A DNA stretch of 64,000 bases from Chloroflexi bacterium 54-19. GTDB lineage: Bacteria; Chloroflexota; Chloroflexia; Chloroheliales; Chloroheliaceae. The number at the start of each line of letters is the position of its first letter. Positions within the stretch are counted from its first letter, which is position 1. The stretch spans positions 124,001 through 188,000 of the forward strand of contig MKTJ01000017.1 in the NCBI GenBank assembly GCA_001898225.1. Direction: 5' to 3'. The translations under genes and the position numbers were made by a program. This document shows positions 9,473 to 48,220 of this stretch, in pieces. The notes under the pieces were generated by a model that searched no databases, was not told the origin of the DNA, and worked only from the letters and a program-made list of their open reading frames with translations.

Positions 9473-9685
9473 ATGGAAAAGAATGAACTAAACAATGAGA
9501 AGGAACCCACCACCTCTCAGCCCGAAATGCTTCAGAGCGAGTCCCAGGACGGCGAACTGACCGACGAAGAACTTGATACCGTAGACGGGGGCTTGCTGCC
9601 TGCCGTGAAAAATGCCACCGTTGGCCCCGTAGTTGCCTCCAAACCCGCCCAGGCTGGCATCATCGCAGTCCTGATTGGCTTATAA
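9473..9685 (+). CDS. Double-glycine leader peptide (candidate bacteriocin or RiPP precursor)
   Basis: A 70-residue peptide. Residues 1-40 are a hydrophilic, acidic leader ending in ELTDEELDTVDGG, which matches the double-glycine consensus cut by C39-type peptidase/ABC exporters. The predicted core (41-70) is 30 residues, hydrophobic, Ala/Val/Gly/Pro-rich and free of Cys. It has only one Ser and one Thr, so lanthionine rings are unlikely. A GAAAGGA ribosome site lies 9-10 nt upstream, a possible -10 TATAAT is at 9410-9415, and a strong terminator follows. No C39 peptidase, modification enzyme or immunity gene is adjacent, so the processing machinery would have to be elsewhere. Confidence 0.7.
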   Translation: MEKNELNNEKEPTTSQPEMLQSESQDGELTDEELDTVDGGLLPAVKNATVGPVVASKPAQAGIIAVLIGL

Positions 9686-11893: not shown

Positions 11894-12120
11894 TCTAATT
11901 TAACACCTCACGTTCAGGTTTGAATTTACACGAGTTCATATATCAAAAAGTAAACCGTGAATAGAAGGTGGTTTTGAGGTGTTTCAACCGACCGAGGTTT
12001 TAACAAATAATTTGGGGGTAGAATTGTTATTCCAGGCAAAACTCAGACGGTTCGAAAGTGAACATCTGAGTTATGTCAAGTATCAGAGAGGGTTTTTAAT
12101 TGAAGGTGAGTCCAAAACGC

Positions 12121-12618
12121 CTAACCAATCCGGGTATTGGGTTCTTCTTCCGTGGCGCGGTCGAAATCGGTCCAGCGGCCCTTACCCGAACTATAGATAA
12201 CTTTCATACCGGGCGGCAGTTGTTTTTGAGTGGTTTCGAGGCGGGTCACTTTTTCCGGCTCTTTCTCCCGGTTCAAACCGTTCCGGTCCCCTATTTCCCG
12301 GAAATATGTTTTTATAGAATTAGGGATATGTAGACTAAAACCCGTGAACAGTACCAGGCAGGAAACCAGCCCGACCACCAGGCTTTCAAGGACTAACAAG
12401 ACCAGCACCCCCAGGTAATCGGTTAAAGGCGTCCTGATACTGACGGTAAAGAGCCAGACCACCAGGCCGAACAAACCACAAACACCGAGATGCACCAGGA
12501 CCGCTATCCACCGGGAAGGGCCTGTTAAAGCCCGTAGGTTCCGCCGTCCCGGAAAGCGGGCCAGGGTCAGGGCGGCCACCAGGGCGCATACGAGCAACAA
12601 TGATAAGATTGGAGTCAT
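12121..12618 (-). CDS. Hypothetical membrane protein
   Basis: A 165-residue protein with three or four hydrophobic segments (about residues 2-20, 36-58, 68-95) and a charged cytoplasmic-looking tail from residue 105. A GAGAG site precedes the ATG. It is not recognised as a known family. It lies upstream of and in the same direction as the frameshifted membrane gene, with a 227-nt gap (11894-12120) in which I see nothing else, so a shared unit is possible but not shown. Confidence 0.55.
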   Translation of the reverse strand: MTPILSLLLVCALVAALTLARFPGRRNLRALTGPSRWIAVLVHLGVCGLFGLVVWLFTVSIRTPLTDYLGVLVLLVLESLVVGLVSCLVLFTGFSLHIPNSIKTYFREIGDRNGLNREKEPEKVTRLETTQKQLPPGMKVIYSSGKGRWTDFDRATEEEPNTRIG

Positions 12619-12792
12619 ACTTCTCTCTCACATAAATAATGCTAAATGATAGTTCAAAACAGGTTTACCCGGGCAAACCAACCAAACAGGTGGTGGATAT
12701 AACTGGATAAAACCGAATTTGAAACATAAAAACAAAGGTGAGTCTATAGCTCACCTGTCCGCGCATAAGTATCTAAAAAGGTATCTGGAAAA

Positions 12793-13659
12793 TTAGAAAA
12801 AAGAGCCCTGGGTAGGATTATCGTCCGATTTGGGGCGGTTGGCGTAGGTGGGACCAAGCCCCATATTTTCGTCGTGGCGAAGTTTCATACCGTTCAGGCG
12901 GTACCGCAGGGCGGTCTGGGTAACCCCCAACTCCTGGGCCATCGCCTCGACATCCCCGGCGTGCTTTTTATTAAGTGAACGTACCAGGTCGGAGGGCATC
13001 AGCAAGCCACGCGCGAAAATATTGGCCTCCCATTCGGTCCGGTCGGCTGCTTCTTTAGAGCGCAACGCTTTGGCAAGCTGGGATTGTGTTTCCGGCTTTT
13101 GCAAAGCCTGGCGGCTCACCCGGCCCATCACTTTAGGCGGGGTTGCCGGTTGTTCCAGAGAATTCTCGCTGGTATCATCTTCAGAAGCGCTGGCCGTCAC
13201 GTTGGCTTCCGAACAACGGAAAAAACGAGCCGCAGGAGTAACGGCCCGTTCGAGGGTAACGCCCGGCTCAGGGCCGGGAAATTCAAGGGCATCAAAAAGA
13301 GTAGGCTGCTGGGATAAATTTACTGCCGGGATATAATGCAAAAAGTAGTGACCCAGTTCGTGGGCAATACTGAAATTCTGCCGTCCTTCGGGGTCGTTTT
13401 CTTCGTAAAGAAGTTCGCCGCGTTCCATATCGAGCAACCCGGCCATCTCTTTACCATTGTGGGACAGACCATCAACAGCGCGCAAGCTCAGTTCGGTAAT
13501 GGTCAGGGCAATGTATTCAGCCGGGATGGGCGGCATTTCGGGCACACTCAAGCCAGCCGCTTGCAGACAACGCTGAAATTCAGCTACCTTTTTCAGCGCC
13601 AAATCTTCAATTTGTCCCAGGCTGGGTCGCCCGCTCCACTTACCGCCGCGTCGCACCAT
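12793..13659 (-). CDS. ImmA/IrrE-family metallo-endopeptidase
   Basis: Zinc peptidase of the family that cuts XRE-type repressors (ImmA cuts ImmR; IrrE/PprI cuts DdrO). The active-site motif is AHELGHYFLH with His100, Glu101 and His104, and the third-ligand region EWEANIFARGLLMP is typical. A short C-terminal helix-turn-helix-like segment (AQELGVTQTALRYRLNGM) follows. I chose the ATG at 13659, not the one at 13695, because AAGGAG lies just upstream; this gives 288 residues. It is the last gene of a three-gene set with a sigma factor and a possible XRE-fold protein, which would be the natural substrate. Confidence 0.9.
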   Translation of the reverse strand: MVRRGGKWSGRPSLGQIEDLALKKVAEFQRCLQAAGLSVPEMPPIPAEYIALTITELSLRAVDGLSHNGKEMAGLLDMERGELLYEENDPEGRQNFSIAHELGHYFLHYIPAVNLSQQPTLFDALEFPGPEPGVTLERAVTPAARFFRCSEANVTASASEDDTSENSLEQPATPPKVMGRVSRQALQKPETQSQLAKALRSKEAADRTEWEANIFARGLLMPSDLVRSLNKKHAGDVEAMAQELGVTQTALRYRLNGMKLRHDENMGLGPTYANRPKSDDNPTQGSFF

Positions 13660-13759
13660 GCAACTTGTCTCCTTGCTAAACCTTACCGCCACCACCGGAT
13701 AAATCGGGGCCTGCTTTTCCGTCCGACATATCTATTATACGTCAAACCGGGGCGGCAGG

Positions 13760-14434
13760 TTACTCTTTTTCGGTATTTTCCGGCTGCTCAGTTGGCTGTT
13801 CAGGTTTTTCGGACTGTTCCAGGTGTTCGGCCAATTCCGCTTCGCTCAGACCCTGGCGGCGCGCTTCTTCCTCGCGGGCGAAGACCATGCTGCCCGAACT
13901 ACCGAACGAAGGCAGCGTCAGCGATTTGCCCAGACCCTTGAGCCAGCGCAACATGCGCGGGAAGGCGCTATCCTTAACCCCGTACTGCCGGGCCAGGTTG
14001 GCGTAATCGTTCAACTGGTAGCCGCGCAACTCGTCCATCGAGGTCCGGTCAGCTTTAATCGCTTCCAGGGTCGATTTCGAAAGACCCGACTCGGTAATAG
14101 CTGAAGCCTCGTTCTGGTCCAACGCCTGGGAGACATAGTGGCCGAGACTGGCTGTATTTTCCTGGGCTACCACCGCCGGGCTGAACGAACGCTGTTTGAA
14201 GCGCATCCAGGCGCTATCCACATCCGAAGAGCGGGGTTTTAAGCGGCCCGGCAAACCCAGTAAAGACTCTACCTGCGGGTCAAGGCTGGCAGAATTGGCG
14301 ATCACCTTGCCGGAACCTTCCGGGCCGTTCAGACGCTCAAAATAGACGGCCAGGGCTTCTTGAAATTCGGGGGTTACTCCCAGGTTATCGTCGGACGAGG
14401 TTGATGCCACCTCTTTGTTAAATTTATCCTGCAT
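13760..14434 (-). CDS. Putative regulatory protein with an XRE-like helix-turn-helix core
   Basis: A 224-residue soluble protein. Residues 95-160 can be read as an XRE-type five-helix domain: LGHYVSQAL, EASAITESG, a turn, LSKSTLEAIKAD as the recognition helix, then NDYANLARQYGV. The N-terminal 90 residues are acidic and linker-like, and the tail after 195 is rich in Glu, Pro and Gln. An AAAGGAG site precedes the ATG. It sits between the sigma-factor gene (110 nt upstream) and the ImmA/IrrE peptidase gene (100 nt downstream). That suggests it is either the cleavable repressor or an anti-sigma partner. The domain call is my reading and is uncertain. Confidence 0.6.
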   Translation of the reverse strand: MQDKFNKEVASTSSDDNLGVTPEFQEALAVYFERLNGPEGSGKVIANSASLDPQVESLLGLPGRLKPRSSDVDSAWMRFKQRSFSPAVVAQENTASLGHYVSQALDQNEASAITESGLSKSTLEAIKADRTSMDELRGYQLNDYANLARQYGVKDSAFPRMLRWLKGLGKSLTLPSFGSSGSMVFAREEEARRQGLSEAELAEHLEQSEKPEQPTEQPENTEKE

Positions 14435-14543
14435 TTTGCTGCTACTCCTTTCAGACTCTACGGCCCGCCACCGGGCGGACCCGACTACCGGATTTGGAAC
14501 CCTTGTTACTGCTTTGCCACCAAAACCGGTTAGCCCGCCAGAC

Positions 14544-15329
14544 CTACAGTAACCAATCGCTGGAATTGCCTGGCATCCGTTTTTGCAGCCACTTTATACC
14601 TCTTGCCGTGTTGTGCTTGACCTGGTCAATCGTCAGGTCAAGTTCTTCACTAACTTCTTTGATTCGCATTCCCATCAGCCACTGGCAGACCAGCGGAGCG
14701 CGATACTGGGAAGGCATTTCCTCGATTAATTTGTGCAGAACTCTTATCAGTTCGCGCCGGGCGGCGGCTTCCACCACGTCGGCGTCCGGGTCGTCCAGCA
14801 AATGAATCAGTTCGAGGTCATCGCTATCGCTGTTTGCTGCCGGGGCATTCAGGGAGAGAACCGTCGCCCCCTTGACCTTGGGACCACCAACACTTTCGGT
14901 ATCGGTGCTGGTCAACCCGGCCCGCATCAGCTTTTTACCCTGAAATAACTTTTCCAGCAAGGTTGCGTATTCCCGTTCGAACGAGTGGCGGACCAGACCG
15001 CGCAGGTTCGTGATAACTTCCTTGCCGTTCAACCGTTCCAGGACGGTTGACATGGCTTCCGCCGCCAGGTCTTCGGCGTAAACCGCCCCCAGCCTGCTGG
15101 TCGCCAGGTTCGAAACATAAGGCCAATAACGCCTAAAAATCGGTTCAAAGGCCAGCGAGGCTTCTTCACTGTGCGGGCCATGTTGGCCGGAAGCCAGGCG
15201 GTACGCTTCTACCAGTTGGACATCCGGCACCTGATTGTCTATCCGCATCCTTAGTCTCCACAAAGGCACTTCTTCCGCATCGGTAGTCATTCCAACAGGC
15301 TCAATCGTTCTCGGTTTCGTATCAAACAC
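14544..15329 (-). CDS. RNA polymerase sigma-70 family (ECF-like) factor
   Basis: A 261-residue alternative sigma factor. Residues 45-110 resemble region 2 (FEPIFRRYWPYVSNLATSRL, then AEDLAAEAMSTVLERL). Residues 195-252 resemble region 4 (EEMPSQYRAPLVCQWLMGM, then IKEVSEELDLTIDQVKHNTA). The linker of about 85 residues between them is longer than in most ECF factors. The start is a GTG at 15329 preceded by GGGAGGAAG at good spacing. It is the first gene of the sigma / XRE-like / ImmA-IrrE unit, so its activity is probably released by proteolysis or partner binding. The target promoters are unknown. Confidence 0.85.
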   Translation of the reverse strand: MFDTKPRTIEPVGMTTDAEEVPLWRLRMRIDNQVPDVQLVEAYRLASGQHGPHSEEASLAFEPIFRRYWPYVSNLATSRLGAVYAEDLAAEAMSTVLERLNGKEVITNLRGLVRHSFEREYATLLEKLFQGKKLMRAGLTSTDTESVGGPKVKGATVLSLNAPAANSDSDDLELIHLLDDPDADVVEAAARRELIRVLHKLIEEMPSQYRAPLVCQWLMGMRIKEVSEELDLTIDQVKHNTARGIKWLQKRMPGNSSDWLL

Positions 15330-15626
15330 AATACTTCCTCCCTGCGTTCCGGCTAAAATTCAAGTTACGGCTCACTTTATTTCGTTTGACTTACCGCGCC
15401 TGTCTTATGTATCAAACAACCTAAAAAAAAGTGCCACTCCTTTTCACAAATTTTAAAAATTCGTTTTCCTACCCGGCTAATTCTAGCATACCCGCGCCAG
15501 TTGATATTAAAATTAACAAAAATAGCCCATTCCCGGCAAAGAAACAGAATTGATTGTGAGGCCCAGGAGGTCTATAATTAATAGCCTTAGAGAAATATTC
15601 GGGTAACTGCTTAAAAGGGATTTTCG

Positions 15627-15854
15627 ATGAACGCGGGAGAGTTGGAGACCGAAAAGAAGGTCGAGCCGGTCAAACCAAAAAAGACTATCTGCATGGATTG
15701 CGGCACACCGCTTGAGGACGAGTTTGTACCGATTTACGACTGGTACAGCCGGGGAGAGCCTCAAATTATCGGGCGGTTATGCCTGGATTGCTATAACAGC
15801 GCCTGTAGCCACTGTCACGGCATGGGTTGCCTGGGCGAATGTGCCTACGATTAG
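15627..15854 (+). CDS. Small zinc-ribbon-like protein
   Basis: A 75-residue protein with a Lys/Glu-rich N-terminus followed by three Cys clusters: CMDCG near residue 22, CLDC near 52, and CSHCHGMGCLGEC at 60-72. Their spacing suggests one or two bound zinc ions. An AAAGGGA site lies upstream of the ATG. It lies divergent from the sigma-factor gene and convergent with parB. The family is not recognised; a DNA- or protein-binding accessory role is possible. Confidence 0.65.
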   Translation: MNAGELETEKKVEPVKPKKTICMDCGTPLEDEFVPIYDWYSRGEPQIIGRLCLDCYNSACSHCHGMGCLGECAYD

Positions 15855-15970: not shown

Positions 15971-17008
15971 CTAGAACCTGGAAACCCTGCCCCTGGTGGC
16001 GGGGTGTTTCTTTAGAAGCTCTTTGACCAGGGCTTCTATTTTTTTGAGTTGTTCGCTCTCCGCCACGCTCATTGATTGGCGTTGCTCGACGTTATCCTGG
16101 AACTGTTGCAGACCCCGCCAGACCGTCGCCAGTTTGCTTAACGCCACCCGCTCCAGGGTCTTCGCGTCAACTTCTTCTCCCCCACCTCCTTCCCCTTTTT
16201 CCAGGCTCGCTTTCTTTTCGGAAGCAGCCTTTTTAGCAGACGTGGGAATGGTGTCCTGCTCTAAAGCAGGCGAAGCCGGGGCCCTTTCCGGTCCGGCCAG
16301 GTAGGAGGGCAGGTCGTCGGCGGTTAACTTCCCGCTTTTGAGAAGCTCGATAGCCTCCTGGCGCCGGGCCGGGTCGGTAACTTTTATCAGGGTCGAGACA
16401 GCCCGCAGGCTATCCGGTTTCTCGGCCACCAGTTGTTGAATATCCTGGGGGGCGCGGGCCACCCGCAACCGGTTTTCGACATAGCCCCGGTTTTTACCGA
16501 TTTCACGGGCGATTTGCTCGTGAGTATATTCCATTTCTTCGGCCATCAGTAAAAAAATCCGGCCTTCTTCCAGGGGCGTTAAATCCTCACGCTGGATATT
16601 TTCGGTGATGGCAAGCCCGGCCATTTCTTCCTCGGAAAGTTCCTTTACCACCACCGGCAACAGCGTTAAACCAGCCTGGCGGGAGGCTTCCCGGCGGCGG
16701 TGTCCGGCGGTAAGCTGGTAATGGCCCGGCACCTGGGGATGGGGACGGGCTACCAGTACCCCCTGGAACCCCTGCGCCTTTATAACCTGAGCCAACTCTT
16801 TTAGATTCGACTCGTCCGCTTTCAAGCGGGGCTGGTAAGGGTTATCCTGCAAAAAATCTATCTCTACCAGGACAGCCTGTTCGATATCATTTTTATGTAA
16901 AGCCAGTAAGTTCGAAAGGACCGACCGTTTCGGGGTGGAAACAACGCTAATGGGTTCTTTTTCCCCGCTCATAAAGTCGAGGTTAAGAGGTTTTTGTTTT
17001 CTCGCCAC
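15971..17008 (-). CDS. parB: ParB chromosome/plasmid partition protein
   Basis: CTP-dependent DNA clamp that loads at parS and spreads along DNA. The 345-residue protein has the N-terminal ParB/Srx fold with TAGHRRREA near residue 101 and ENIQREDLTPLEEG near 140. The central helix-turn-helix follows (YTHEQIAREIGKNRGYVENR), then a charged low-complexity linker and a C-terminal dimerisation region. The start is a GTG at 17008 with GGGAG upstream, 4 nt after the parA stop, so the two genes are translated together. The specific site should be the palindrome at 15919 and 18326. Confidence 0.95.
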   Translation of the reverse strand: MARKQKPLNLDFMSGEKEPISVVSTPKRSVLSNLLALHKNDIEQAVLVEIDFLQDNPYQPRLKADESNLKELAQVIKAQGFQGVLVARPHPQVPGHYQLTAGHRRREASRQAGLTLLPVVVKELSEEEMAGLAITENIQREDLTPLEEGRIFLLMAEEMEYTHEQIAREIGKNRGYVENRLRVARAPQDIQQLVAEKPDSLRAVSTLIKVTDPARRQEAIELLKSGKLTADDLPSYLAGPERAPASPALEQDTIPTSAKKAASEKKASLEKGEGGGGEEVDAKTLERVALSKLATVWRGLQQFQDNVEQRQSMSVAESEQLKKIEALVKELLKKHPATRGRVSRF

Positions 17009-17012
17009 AGCC

Positions 17013-18155
17013 TTACTCCCCTGCCTTACCGGCGGAAGCCGCCGCTACGGTGGCGCGTTTCCGGCTCGAATTCTTGCTCCCGGACCCATTCTGTGTGGGA
17101 ACCGCCAGCCCATCTTTAGGACTTTCAACCGGGTCTTCGAAAGACTGGCCGTTAAAGGGAGTTTCCAGCATTTCAAGCCGGTCGAGGCCAGGGCCACCGA
17201 CCACTCTTAAAATTTCGGCCAGGAGTTGGCGGTAGGCTTCAGTCTGGTCACTGCGGGGGTTGTGGACCGCCATGACGGTGCGCTGGTTGGCCGCCTCGGC
17301 GAATTGCACGCTGCGTTTGATGACGGTGGTAAAGGCCCGGATGCCGCGCTGACCCAGGGCCTGGCGCAAGGCTTCTGCCATCGCCCGCGAGGCGTTGGTC
17401 ATCTGGACCATCAGGGCCGCCGCCCCGGCGATTTGCAACCGGGGATTACCCTCGGCCCGCGCTTCGTCAATCCGCTCCAAAAGCAGTTGCATCCCTTTGA
17501 CCGATAGCATTTCCAACTGGGTTGGTATGACCACGTAATCCGCGGCGTAAAGAGCATTGACCGTCAGGCCATTAAGGCTCGGCCCGGCATCGAGCAAAAT
17601 ATAATCATAATTGTGCCGGATTCTTTTCAGGACGGTCGCCAGGCGCGTGCCCCAGGTCGGCTTGCTGCTAAGCTCGCGGTCGGCGTTGCTGGCAATAATG
17701 TTGTTTGGCGCGAGGTCCGGTCCAAAAGAGGTCTTTAGTATCACCTGGTTTATATTGAAGTCACGTTCGCCAATCATGGCGTCGTAGATAGTAGTCGAAA
17801 GGTCTTCGGGGTTATAACCAAGCGTAAAGGTAAGATGCCCCTGCGGGTCGAGGTCAACCAGCAAAACCCTGAGTCCCATCTGCTTTAACAGGACGCCCAG
17901 GTTAGCCGTCGCGGTGGTCTTGCCAACGCCGCCTTTCTGGTTGGCAAAGGCGACTACTATGGCCCCTTCTTCTTTGGAGCGCTGAATACTGGCGATAAAA
18001 GCTTCGAGGTCGGCCTCACTGACCCGGTAGTGCCCCCCGGCGGTAGCCGATGCAGGGAGCAACCCTTCCCGGATATAACGCGCTACGGTGCCGGTATCCA
18101 CACCCAGGCGCTGGGCGGCCTCGGCTGTCTTTAGCAGTTTGCCAGTATTTGCCAT
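17013..18155 (-). CDS. parA: ParA partition ATPase with N-terminal MerR-like DNA-binding domain
   Basis: Walker-type ATPase that moves ParB-parS complexes. Residues 1-55 are a MerR/excisionase-like winged helix (LLKTAEAAQRLGVDTGTVAR, GGHYRVSEADLEAFI), which in plasmid-type ParA proteins commonly binds the operon's own operator. The deviant Walker A ANQKGGVGKTT starts near residue 70, and the Walker B-like VLLVDLDPQG and LLDAGPSLNG are present. I chose the ATG at 18155. The upstream ATG at 18206 lies inside the -10 element of the promoter, while 18155 has GGAG upstream. An N-terminal DNA-binding domain suggests a type Ia, self-regulating partition system. Confidence 0.95.
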   Translation of the reverse strand: MANTGKLLKTAEAAQRLGVDTGTVARYIREGLLPASATAGGHYRVSEADLEAFIASIQRSKEEGAIVVAFANQKGGVGKTTATANLGVLLKQMGLRVLLVDLDPQGHLTFTLGYNPEDLSTTIYDAMIGERDFNINQVILKTSFGPDLAPNNIIASNADRELSSKPTWGTRLATVLKRIRHNYDYILLDAGPSLNGLTVNALYAADYVVIPTQLEMLSVKGMQLLLERIDEARAEGNPRLQIAGAAALMVQMTNASRAMAEALRQALGQRGIRAFTTVIKRSVQFAEAANQRTVMAVHNPRSDQTEAYRQLLAEILRVVGGPGLDRLEMLETPFNGQSFEDPVESPKDGLAVPTQNGSGSKNSSRKRATVAAASAGKAGE

Positions 18156-18205
18156 CTTTACATTTGCTCCTGAAGCGATTACACTAATTAAACGATATGG
18201 AGCCA

Positions 18206-18234
18206 TTATTACATAAAATCGCTCAAACTGTCAA
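18206..18234 (-). promoter_or_regulatory. Sigma-70 promoter of parAB
   Basis: On the minus strand TTGACA (18229-18234), a 17-bp spacer and TAATAA (18206-18211). It fixes transcription start near 18199 and so excludes the parA start codon at 18206. The parS-like palindrome lies about 90 bp further upstream. Confidence 0.75.
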
Positions 18235-45976: not shown

Positions 45977-48055
45977 TTACCGTTGTGAATTGCGCCCCAA
46001 AATCGGCTTTCTGGCCGGTTTTTCTTCTTCCAGCTTGTCCTCCTGGACCATTCGCTTTAGCTCAACTACCTGGTCGCGCAACATGGCCGCTTTTTCGAAC
46101 TCAAGCATTTTGGAGGCTGTCCGCATCTGGCTTTCCAGGTCTTTAATCAGCCGTACAATCTCGTCTTTAGGCAGCGCACCTGGTAAGGCCGGTTGGGCGT
46201 CCGCCGCCGAGTCTTCCGCGTTGACGATATACTCGCCCCGCGACTCGGCTACCGCCCGTACCCGGTCCGTGATGTCCTTGATTTCCTTGACGATACTGGC
46301 CGGTTCAATCCCGTGACTCTCGTTGTATTCCATCTGGATTTTACGCCGCCGGTAGGTTTCATCAATCGTACGCTGCATCGAGTCTGTGATGTTGTCAGCA
46401 TACATCAAAACCTTACCTTCCAGGTGCCGGGCCGCCCGCCCTGTAATCTGGATGAGCGAACTGGTCGAGCGCAGGAAGCCTTCTTTGTCGGCGTCCAGGA
46501 TGGCTACCAGCGACACTTCCGGCAAGTCCAGACCTTCTCGCAACAGGTTGATACCGACTATCACGTCGTAAACCCCCAACCGCAAGTCACGCAGGATTTC
46601 CACCCGCTCCAGGGTTACAACCTCGCTGTGCAGGTAGTGCGTCTTGATACCCATCTCAATCAGGTAGTCAGCTAACTCCTCGGCCATCCGTTTGGTCAGG
46701 GTCGTCACCAGCACGCGCTGGCGTTTGCGGACCCGCTCCTGGATTTCCCCGACCAGGTCGTCAATCTGGCCTTTGGTCGGGCGCACGCTGATTTCGGGGT
46801 CAATCAGACCGGTGGGCCGGATAACCTGTTGGGCGATGGCTTCCGGTTCGGTATGTTCGTATTCGTAGGGACCGGGCGTCGCCGAGACATAGACGGCCTG
46901 GTGGACGTGGTTTTCGAATTCCTCAAAGGTGAGGGGGCGGTTATCCGCCGCCGAGGGCAACCGGAACCCGTAATCAATCAGGGTCATTTTGCGGGAGCGA
47001 TCACCGCCATACATGCCCCGCACCTGGGGTAGCGAGATGTGCGACTCGTCTACAAACGCCACGTAATCGTCCGGGAAATAGTCGAGCAGAGTCCAGGGCT
47101 GTTCCCCGGCCCCCCGCCGGGCCAGGTGCCGCGAATAGTTCTCGACCCCGTTACAGTACCCTGCTTCTTCCAGCATTTCCAGGTCGTAAAGGGTCCGTTG
47201 TTTCAGGCGGGCTGCCTCTAACAACTTGCCGTCTTCTTCCAACTCTTTCAACCGCTCGTCCAACTCGGTCCGAATATCCCGGATAGCCGACTGTAACTTC
47301 TCCGCCGAGGTAACGAAGTGTTTGGCCGGGTAAATATCAATCTTGGTCCGTTCGATTAAGATTTCACCGGTTAACGGGTCAATTTCGGTAATCCGGTCGA
47401 TTTCATCTCCGAAAAGCTCGATTCGGAGGGCAATTTCTTCATAAGCCGGGTAAACTTCGAGCGTATCGCCCCGCACCCGGAAAGTCCCGCGCGAAAGGGT
47501 CAGGTCGTTACGGGCATACTGAATATCAACTAAATGCCGTAACACCCGGTCACGCCGGATGGTATCACCCTTTTTCAGGCTGACCACCACCTTGCCGTAT
47601 TCTTCGGGCGAACCCAGGCCGTAAATACACGAAACCGAGGCTACAATTATCACGTCTCGCCGTTCTAATAAAGCGCGAGTGGCGGCGTGACGCAACTTGT
47701 CAATCTCTTCGTTCACATCGGCGGTTTTTTCGACGTAAACATCGTTTCGGGGAATATAGGCTTCCGGCTGGTAATAGTCGTAATAGCTGACAAAATATTC
47801 TACCGCGTTATTCGGGAAAAACTCTTTAAACTCCTGGTACAACTGGGCGGCCAGGGTCTTATTATGCGCCAGAATCAGAGCCGGGCGCTGGGTTTGTTCG
47901 ATAATCTTTGCCATACTGAAAGTCTTACCGCTACCGGTAACACCCAGCAAAATCTGGTGACGTTTGCCTTCCTGGACCCCTTTTGCCAGTTTATCAATGG
48001 CCTGGGGTTGGTCGCCGGTAGGTTTGAAGTCCGAAACAATTTTAAATTCAGGCAT
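45977..48055 (-). CDS. uvrB: Excinuclease ABC subunit B
   Basis: DNA-damage recognition helicase of nucleotide excision repair, 692 residues, full length. Walker [11 protein letters not shown] near residue 39. The beta-hairpin region is [20 protein letters not shown]. The DEAD-like box is [20 protein letters not shown]. Helicase motif VI region is [11 protein letters not shown]-terminal UVR domain binds UvrC ([17 protein letters not shown]). A minus-strand TATAAT at 48213-48218 may be its -10 element. I saw no recognisable LexA site. Confidence 0.97.
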
Positions 48056-48220
48056 AACTTTGGGCTTTCCTGCTTTTCTTCCTGCTCTGCTGGTTAGCAG
48101 CCTTCCACAATATAAGTCTTAAATAATCCGGTCTTTTAGTATTTTGGCTACAATGTTTTAAAAAAATGTTTCTATACAATATCCGTATTCCGCGAAAAAA
48201 GTGCATGCCCATATTATACC

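Follow-up and report, generated by a model that had tools for sequence, protein, structure and literature searches.

A 64,000-nucleotide stretch of the 9.25 Mb genome of Chloroflexi bacterium 54-19 (hereafter, the window) carries adjacent genes for a sigma factor, a protein of unrecognised family and an M78 (ImmA/IrrE) metallopeptidase. This arrangement raises the question of whether the three form a regulatory switch and, if so, which genes it controls and which stress it answers. The locus was compared with those of four relatives from the family Chloroheliaceae.

Gene content and conservation of the operon

An ORF check of the window found three ORFs, all on the minus strand. Their coordinates and profile matches agree with the earlier note, which had listed a sigma-70 factor, a middle protein and an HELGH peptidase in this order on one strand. 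That description did not include the fourth gene (12121–12618), the promoter motif or its copy at uvrB in the window. The features of the operon are the following:

15410..15436, minus strand: predicted sigma-dependent operon promoter, TGGCACTTTT-N13-GATA, from the upstream alignment
14544..15329, minus strand: ECF-like sigma-70 family factor, 261 aa, GTG start
13760..14434, minus strand: middle protein, 224 aa, predicted anti-sigma factor or M78 substrate
12793..13659, minus strand: M78 (ImmA/IrrE) metallopeptidase, ORF open to 13695
12782..12808, minus strand: second predicted sigma-dependent promoter, internal to the operon; it spans the M78 stop codon and precedes the fourth gene
12736..12756, minus strand: terminator-like hairpin between the M78 gene and the fourth gene, resembling a hairpin sequence in two relatives of the same genus
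12121..12618, minus strand: fourth conserved gene, membrane protein, 165 aa, about 2–3 hydrophobic segments by hydropathy

The sigma factor matches the NCBIfam profile TIGR02937 (sigma70-ECF) over residues 60–252 with an E-value of 5.5e-14, above the cut-off of this profile. Region 4 is recognised by Pfam Sigma70_r4_2 (PF08281, 2.9e-6), and the Pfam region 2 profile gave no match. The orthologues in the four relatives are 93, 87, 68 and 56% identical, and their alignment shows an invariant FEREYATLLEKL and a C-terminal DWLL.

The peptidase matches PF06114 with an E-value of 2.1e-16, the HELGH motif being located at residues 112–116. The protein also features an insert with RFFRC, an EWEAN motif and an HTH-like C-terminal part; HExxH and EWEAN are invariant in the alignment of all five orthologues. 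On the basis of this alignment, the likely start is MVRRGG (13659), 12 residues past the start of the longest ORF. The nearest PDB sequences are CapP (8e-6) and IrrE (0.009). In PprI, a GAF domain is required for activation by single-stranded DNA; no GAF domain was recognised in the M78 protein by the Pfam scan. The product of the fourth gene, which occupies the same position in all five genomes (70, 45, 34 and 32% identity), possesses a CxxC tail in relatives G085 and G086 and lacks it in the genus of the window.

The conserved synteny suggested for checking in the earlier note was found: the order sigma factor, middle protein, M78 peptidase, small membrane protein is present in five of the five Chloroheliaceae genomes. 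Since this order is kept while the outer neighbours differ, the operon can be regarded as a unit. Beyond the family, the sigma factor had no match among the 158 class genomes searched, and the middle protein had none in 400 phylum genomes; in the class search, its sole match outside the family was a weak one in G070 (49 residues, E 5e-4). The search with the M78 protein also returned weaker M78 domains of other kinds in other families. The genome of G085 harbors a second, divergent triplet in the same order (sigma-70 factor, 208-aa protein, M78; L040:5920-7911, contig C4), in which the M78 protein is 34% identical and the 208-aa protein is unalignable.

Several other arrangements were noted. 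XRE-M78 pairs without a sigma factor occur in other Chloroflexia (L038:5746-6871, L039:1403-2776). G475 encodes a protein of about 1240 aa (L041:3077-6805) with an M78 domain followed by UvrD/Rep-like helicase sequence, as judged by eye, and similarly long M78 ORFs are present in G460 and G470. Upstream of the operon in the window, at 15971–18206 (minus strand), there are ParB-like and HTH-ParA-like genes, and a ParA/ParB-like pair also adjoins the operon in G083. An ORF of 70 aa at 9473–9685 (plus strand) resembles a double-glycine leader peptide (ELTDEELDTVDGG).

Identity of the middle protein

The orthologues of the middle protein are 77, 64, 41 and 38% identical and comprise a core of about 80 residues (95–171) and, at the C-terminus, a conserved AR motif that reads MVFAREE in the window. 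The protein of the window has no Pfam or NCBIfam match, and profile searches with its relatives gave only sub-threshold phycobilisome-type matches, in one genome. No significant PDB sequence match was obtained either. The structure prediction proposed in the earlier note was successful in part: AF2 modelled the core alone (83 aa) with fair confidence (pLDDT 84, pTM 0.70), the full-length model was poor (pLDDT 60), and neither led to a significant XRE match. The Foldseek search with the core gave no significant match, the best being an XRE protein with an E-value of 0.84. TM-scores to XRE proteins were at most about 0.35–0.38, and the highest values (0.49/0.55) belonged to a SAM domain.

An XRE assignment was set aside after searches of Pfam, NCBIfam, PDB sequences and AF2/Foldseek without a significant match; for the HTH_3/XRE family in particular, no profile matched and Foldseek E-values were at least 0.84. 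The XRE-fold core that the earlier note had seen in this protein is therefore unconfirmed and only suggestive. Profile, PDB and Foldseek searches recognised no known anti-sigma domain in this conserved neighbour of the sigma factor. The middle protein may contain a degenerate HTH that serves as an anti-sigma domain.

An alternative with a rather low probability is that the middle protein is an XRE/DdrO-like DNA-binding repressor of the sigma operon, the cleavage of which by the M78 peptidase derepresses the sigma gene, with the regulon still driven by the sigma factor. In its favour, DdrO and CapH, both known to be cut by M78 enzymes, regulate transcription (PMC12288472, PMC10904395), the core is rich in helices, and many of its non-significant Foldseek matches are lambda-repressor-like domains (TM about 0.3). 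In addition, the Chloroflexia XRE-M78 pairs feature a GxVFAR sequence that resembles the C-terminal MVFAR of the middle protein. However, a profile–profile comparison of the middle protein with such a pair gave no match, HTH profiles and XRE folds fit as poorly as described above, and visual inspection of the sigma promoter revealed no palindromic operator. The reading of the middle protein as an anti-sigma factor is preferred in what follows.

A promoter-like motif at the operon and at repair genes

Upstream of the sigma gene, TGGCACTTTT is invariant in all five genomes and is followed, at the same spacing, by GATA in four of them and by GATT in G085. The motif core, WGGCWC-N17-GATA, is asymmetric and promoter-like. 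A simple consensus scan of 12000–15700 found no sigma70-type promoter on the operon strand. The internal element has the form WGGCWC/GGGCWC-N17-GAT[AC] in five of five genomes, with the GAT in the non-coding DNA that follows the M78 stop codon. This internal promoter probably serves the fourth gene, despite the intervening terminator-like hairpin in the genus of the window. The hairpin (12736–12756, minus strand) separates the internal promoter from the membrane-protein gene and may act in attenuation or yield a short RNA. The motif is absent upstream of the sigma gene of the second triplet in G085.

Copies of the motif also precede genes of DNA repair, one of them within the window:

48180..48206, minus strand: motif copy upstream of uvrB, ATGCACTTTT-N13-GATA, from the motif scan
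46613..48055 (part matched), minus strand: uvrB, predicted regulon member, 82% identity to UvrB of G085

The uvrB gene has the motif in four of the five genomes: the site of the window recurs in G083 and G084, G085 has TGGCACTTTT-N13-GATA, and no copy was found upstream of uvrB in G086. The recA gene, chosen before the motif scan, is preceded by TGGCTC/AGGCTC-N17-GAT in four genomes and by TGGCAC-N17-GATG in G085. Where ssb has its own promoter, the motif is present in all four genomes in which the gene was seen; in G086, it stands before xseA and before rpsF-ssb. A gene adjoining lexA, labelled S24-domain for its similarity to the C-terminal part of LexA, carries the motif in all three genomes of the genus of the window, with a LexA-like palindrome nearby. 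Upstream of uvrA and lexA, no motif was found in any genome. Outside the repair genes, the motif precedes an ArsR-family/SRPBCC gene pair in three genomes of the genus of the window (L110, L111, L073) and the gene for an orthologous protein of 139–141 aa in G083 and G000 (L127, L175).

The strict form GCACTTTT-N13-GATA has 21 genome-wide matches in the five genomes versus 0 for the backwards control; the three matches in G084 belong to the sigma gene, uvrB and the ArsR-SRPBCC gene pair. Across 38 regions upstream of repair genes, of which ssb, xseA and uvrB were entered after the scan had pointed to them, the core occurs 13 times with a spacer of 17 on the coding strand, and 0 times with spacers of 12–16 or 18–22 or on the opposite strand. 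Compared with dinucleotide shuffles, nine occurrences were observed versus 0.017 expected (24 regions other than the window itself). The motif counts include three genomes of one genus, which are not independent. Sites with two mismatches in the genome of the window (97 versus 92 for the control) are mostly background, and the weaker sites inspected included no further known repair gene. In the outgroup G009, in which class searches found none of the operon proteins, the core occurs at chance density in 1.6 Mb, and no motif was found upstream of uvrB (one outgroup genome, one gene).

A predicted damage-repair regulon that shares its motif with the operon is strongly supported by these placements, and we consider it highly probable. 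LexA is encoded in all five genomes, and its palindromic sites are distinct from the motif; hence, the LexA box is not the shared element. A LexA-like site is also present at recA.

The ownership of the motif was considered as well. It is unlikely that the motif belongs to another regulator (e.g., a WYL activator or a different sigma factor), the operon being one damage-induced target among others, like SigG. Mycobacterium tuberculosis SigG is indeed induced by damage without controlling repair genes (PMC3776920), and the autoregulation of the sigma factor is an assumption. Nevertheless, the bipartite, asymmetric structure with fixed spacing suits −35/−10 elements, the motif occurs twice within the operon in five of five genomes, and G009, where the operon was not found, has neither a uvrB copy nor an excess above chance. 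A further reading, in which the motif is a housekeeping promoter variant (TTGGCA...TATAAT-like) and the regulon an artefact, is very improbable: TTGGCA-N18-GATAAT fits some sites, but lexA has a separate promoter of the TTGACA/TATAAT type, as do recA and uvrB next to their motif copies, the core adheres strictly to its spacer and strand, and the strand of the sigma operon has no sigma70-type match.

Proposed circuit and related systems

The stress switch with a dedicated sigma factor suggested in the earlier note is well supported by the synteny, the conserved promoter-like element and its copies at recA, uvrB and ssb. We infer that the sigma factor reads the motif. The trigger is probably DNA damage, since the element of the sigma gene also precedes recA, uvrB and ssb. 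As its probable promoter motif precedes these three genes, the switch would be built on a sigma factor and not solely on a repressor of the LexA or DdrO style.

In the unstressed cell, the middle protein probably acts as an anti-sigma factor that blocks sigma activity. Once DNA is damaged, the M78 peptidase would cut the middle protein; the enzyme may be activated by single-stranded DNA, as has been reported for PprI and CapP. The freed sigma factor would then guide RNA polymerase to the WGGCWC-N17-GATA promoters of recA, uvrB, ssb, some further repair genes and the fourth gene, and also to that of its own operon, which would be amplified by positive feedback. The LexA and sigma controls would act in parallel, because LexA is present and LexA-like sites occur at recA and at the S24-domain gene.

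Gene order and the known biology of M78 enzymes point to the cutting of the middle protein and to its binding of the sigma factor; for these cleavage and anti-sigma steps, the arguments are about evenly poised. The same even balance applies to the full proposition that the dedicated sigma factor, in parallel to LexA, directly transcribes recA, uvrB and ssb once an anti-sigma factor of a new class has undergone IrrE-type proteolysis. The operon as a DNA-damage response switch parallel to LexA, acting via M78 cleavage of an anti-sigma middle protein, is on the whole the probable reading.

The closest comparison is the PprI/IrrE-DdrO system of the Deinococcus radiation-desiccation response. Single-stranded DNA stimulates both PprI, which cuts the XRE repressor DdrO, and the action of CapP on CapH (PMC10904395). 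There, an M78 enzyme acts, and here it would act, on a partner regulator separately from LexA; in both systems, DNA-repair genes including recA share a common regulatory motif. The difference is that a sigma factor would act here at asymmetric bipartite promoters, whereas DdrO targets are derepressed at RDRM operators; the partner in the operon is not recognisably XRE, and its peptidase has no recognised GAF domain. In ImmA-ImmR and CapP-CapH, the M78 peptidase gene likewise adjoins the gene of its partner, and among PDB sequences CapP matches the operon peptidase best. However, these systems are described without a sigma factor, and here the operon is conserved and the predicted targets are core repair genes. 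With ECF sigma/anti-sigma pairs activated by proteolysis, the operon shares an ECF-like sigma factor, an adjoining putative inhibitor and a promoter-like element before the operon, but proteolysis would here fall to a soluble M78 enzyme. PafBC, SiwR, DriD and Ada resemble the proposed circuit in forming a second damage regulon beside LexA; unlike it, they are transcription activators and not sigma factors (PMC12288472).

The LexA-independent damage regulators treated in a 2025 paper (PafBC, SiwR, DriD, DdrO and Ada) are repressors or activators (PMC12288472), and a review of regulated proteolysis mentions M78 only for IrrE-DdrO (PMC7593790). Compared with the open-access PMC literature, a sigma-driven repair regulon controlled by an M78 peptidase would represent a new circuit layout. 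If the proposed circuit is true, the targets of M78 enzymes extend past XRE-type repressors, and the operon defines the control of DNA repair in Chloroheliaceae, a green Chloroflexota family that includes phototrophs.
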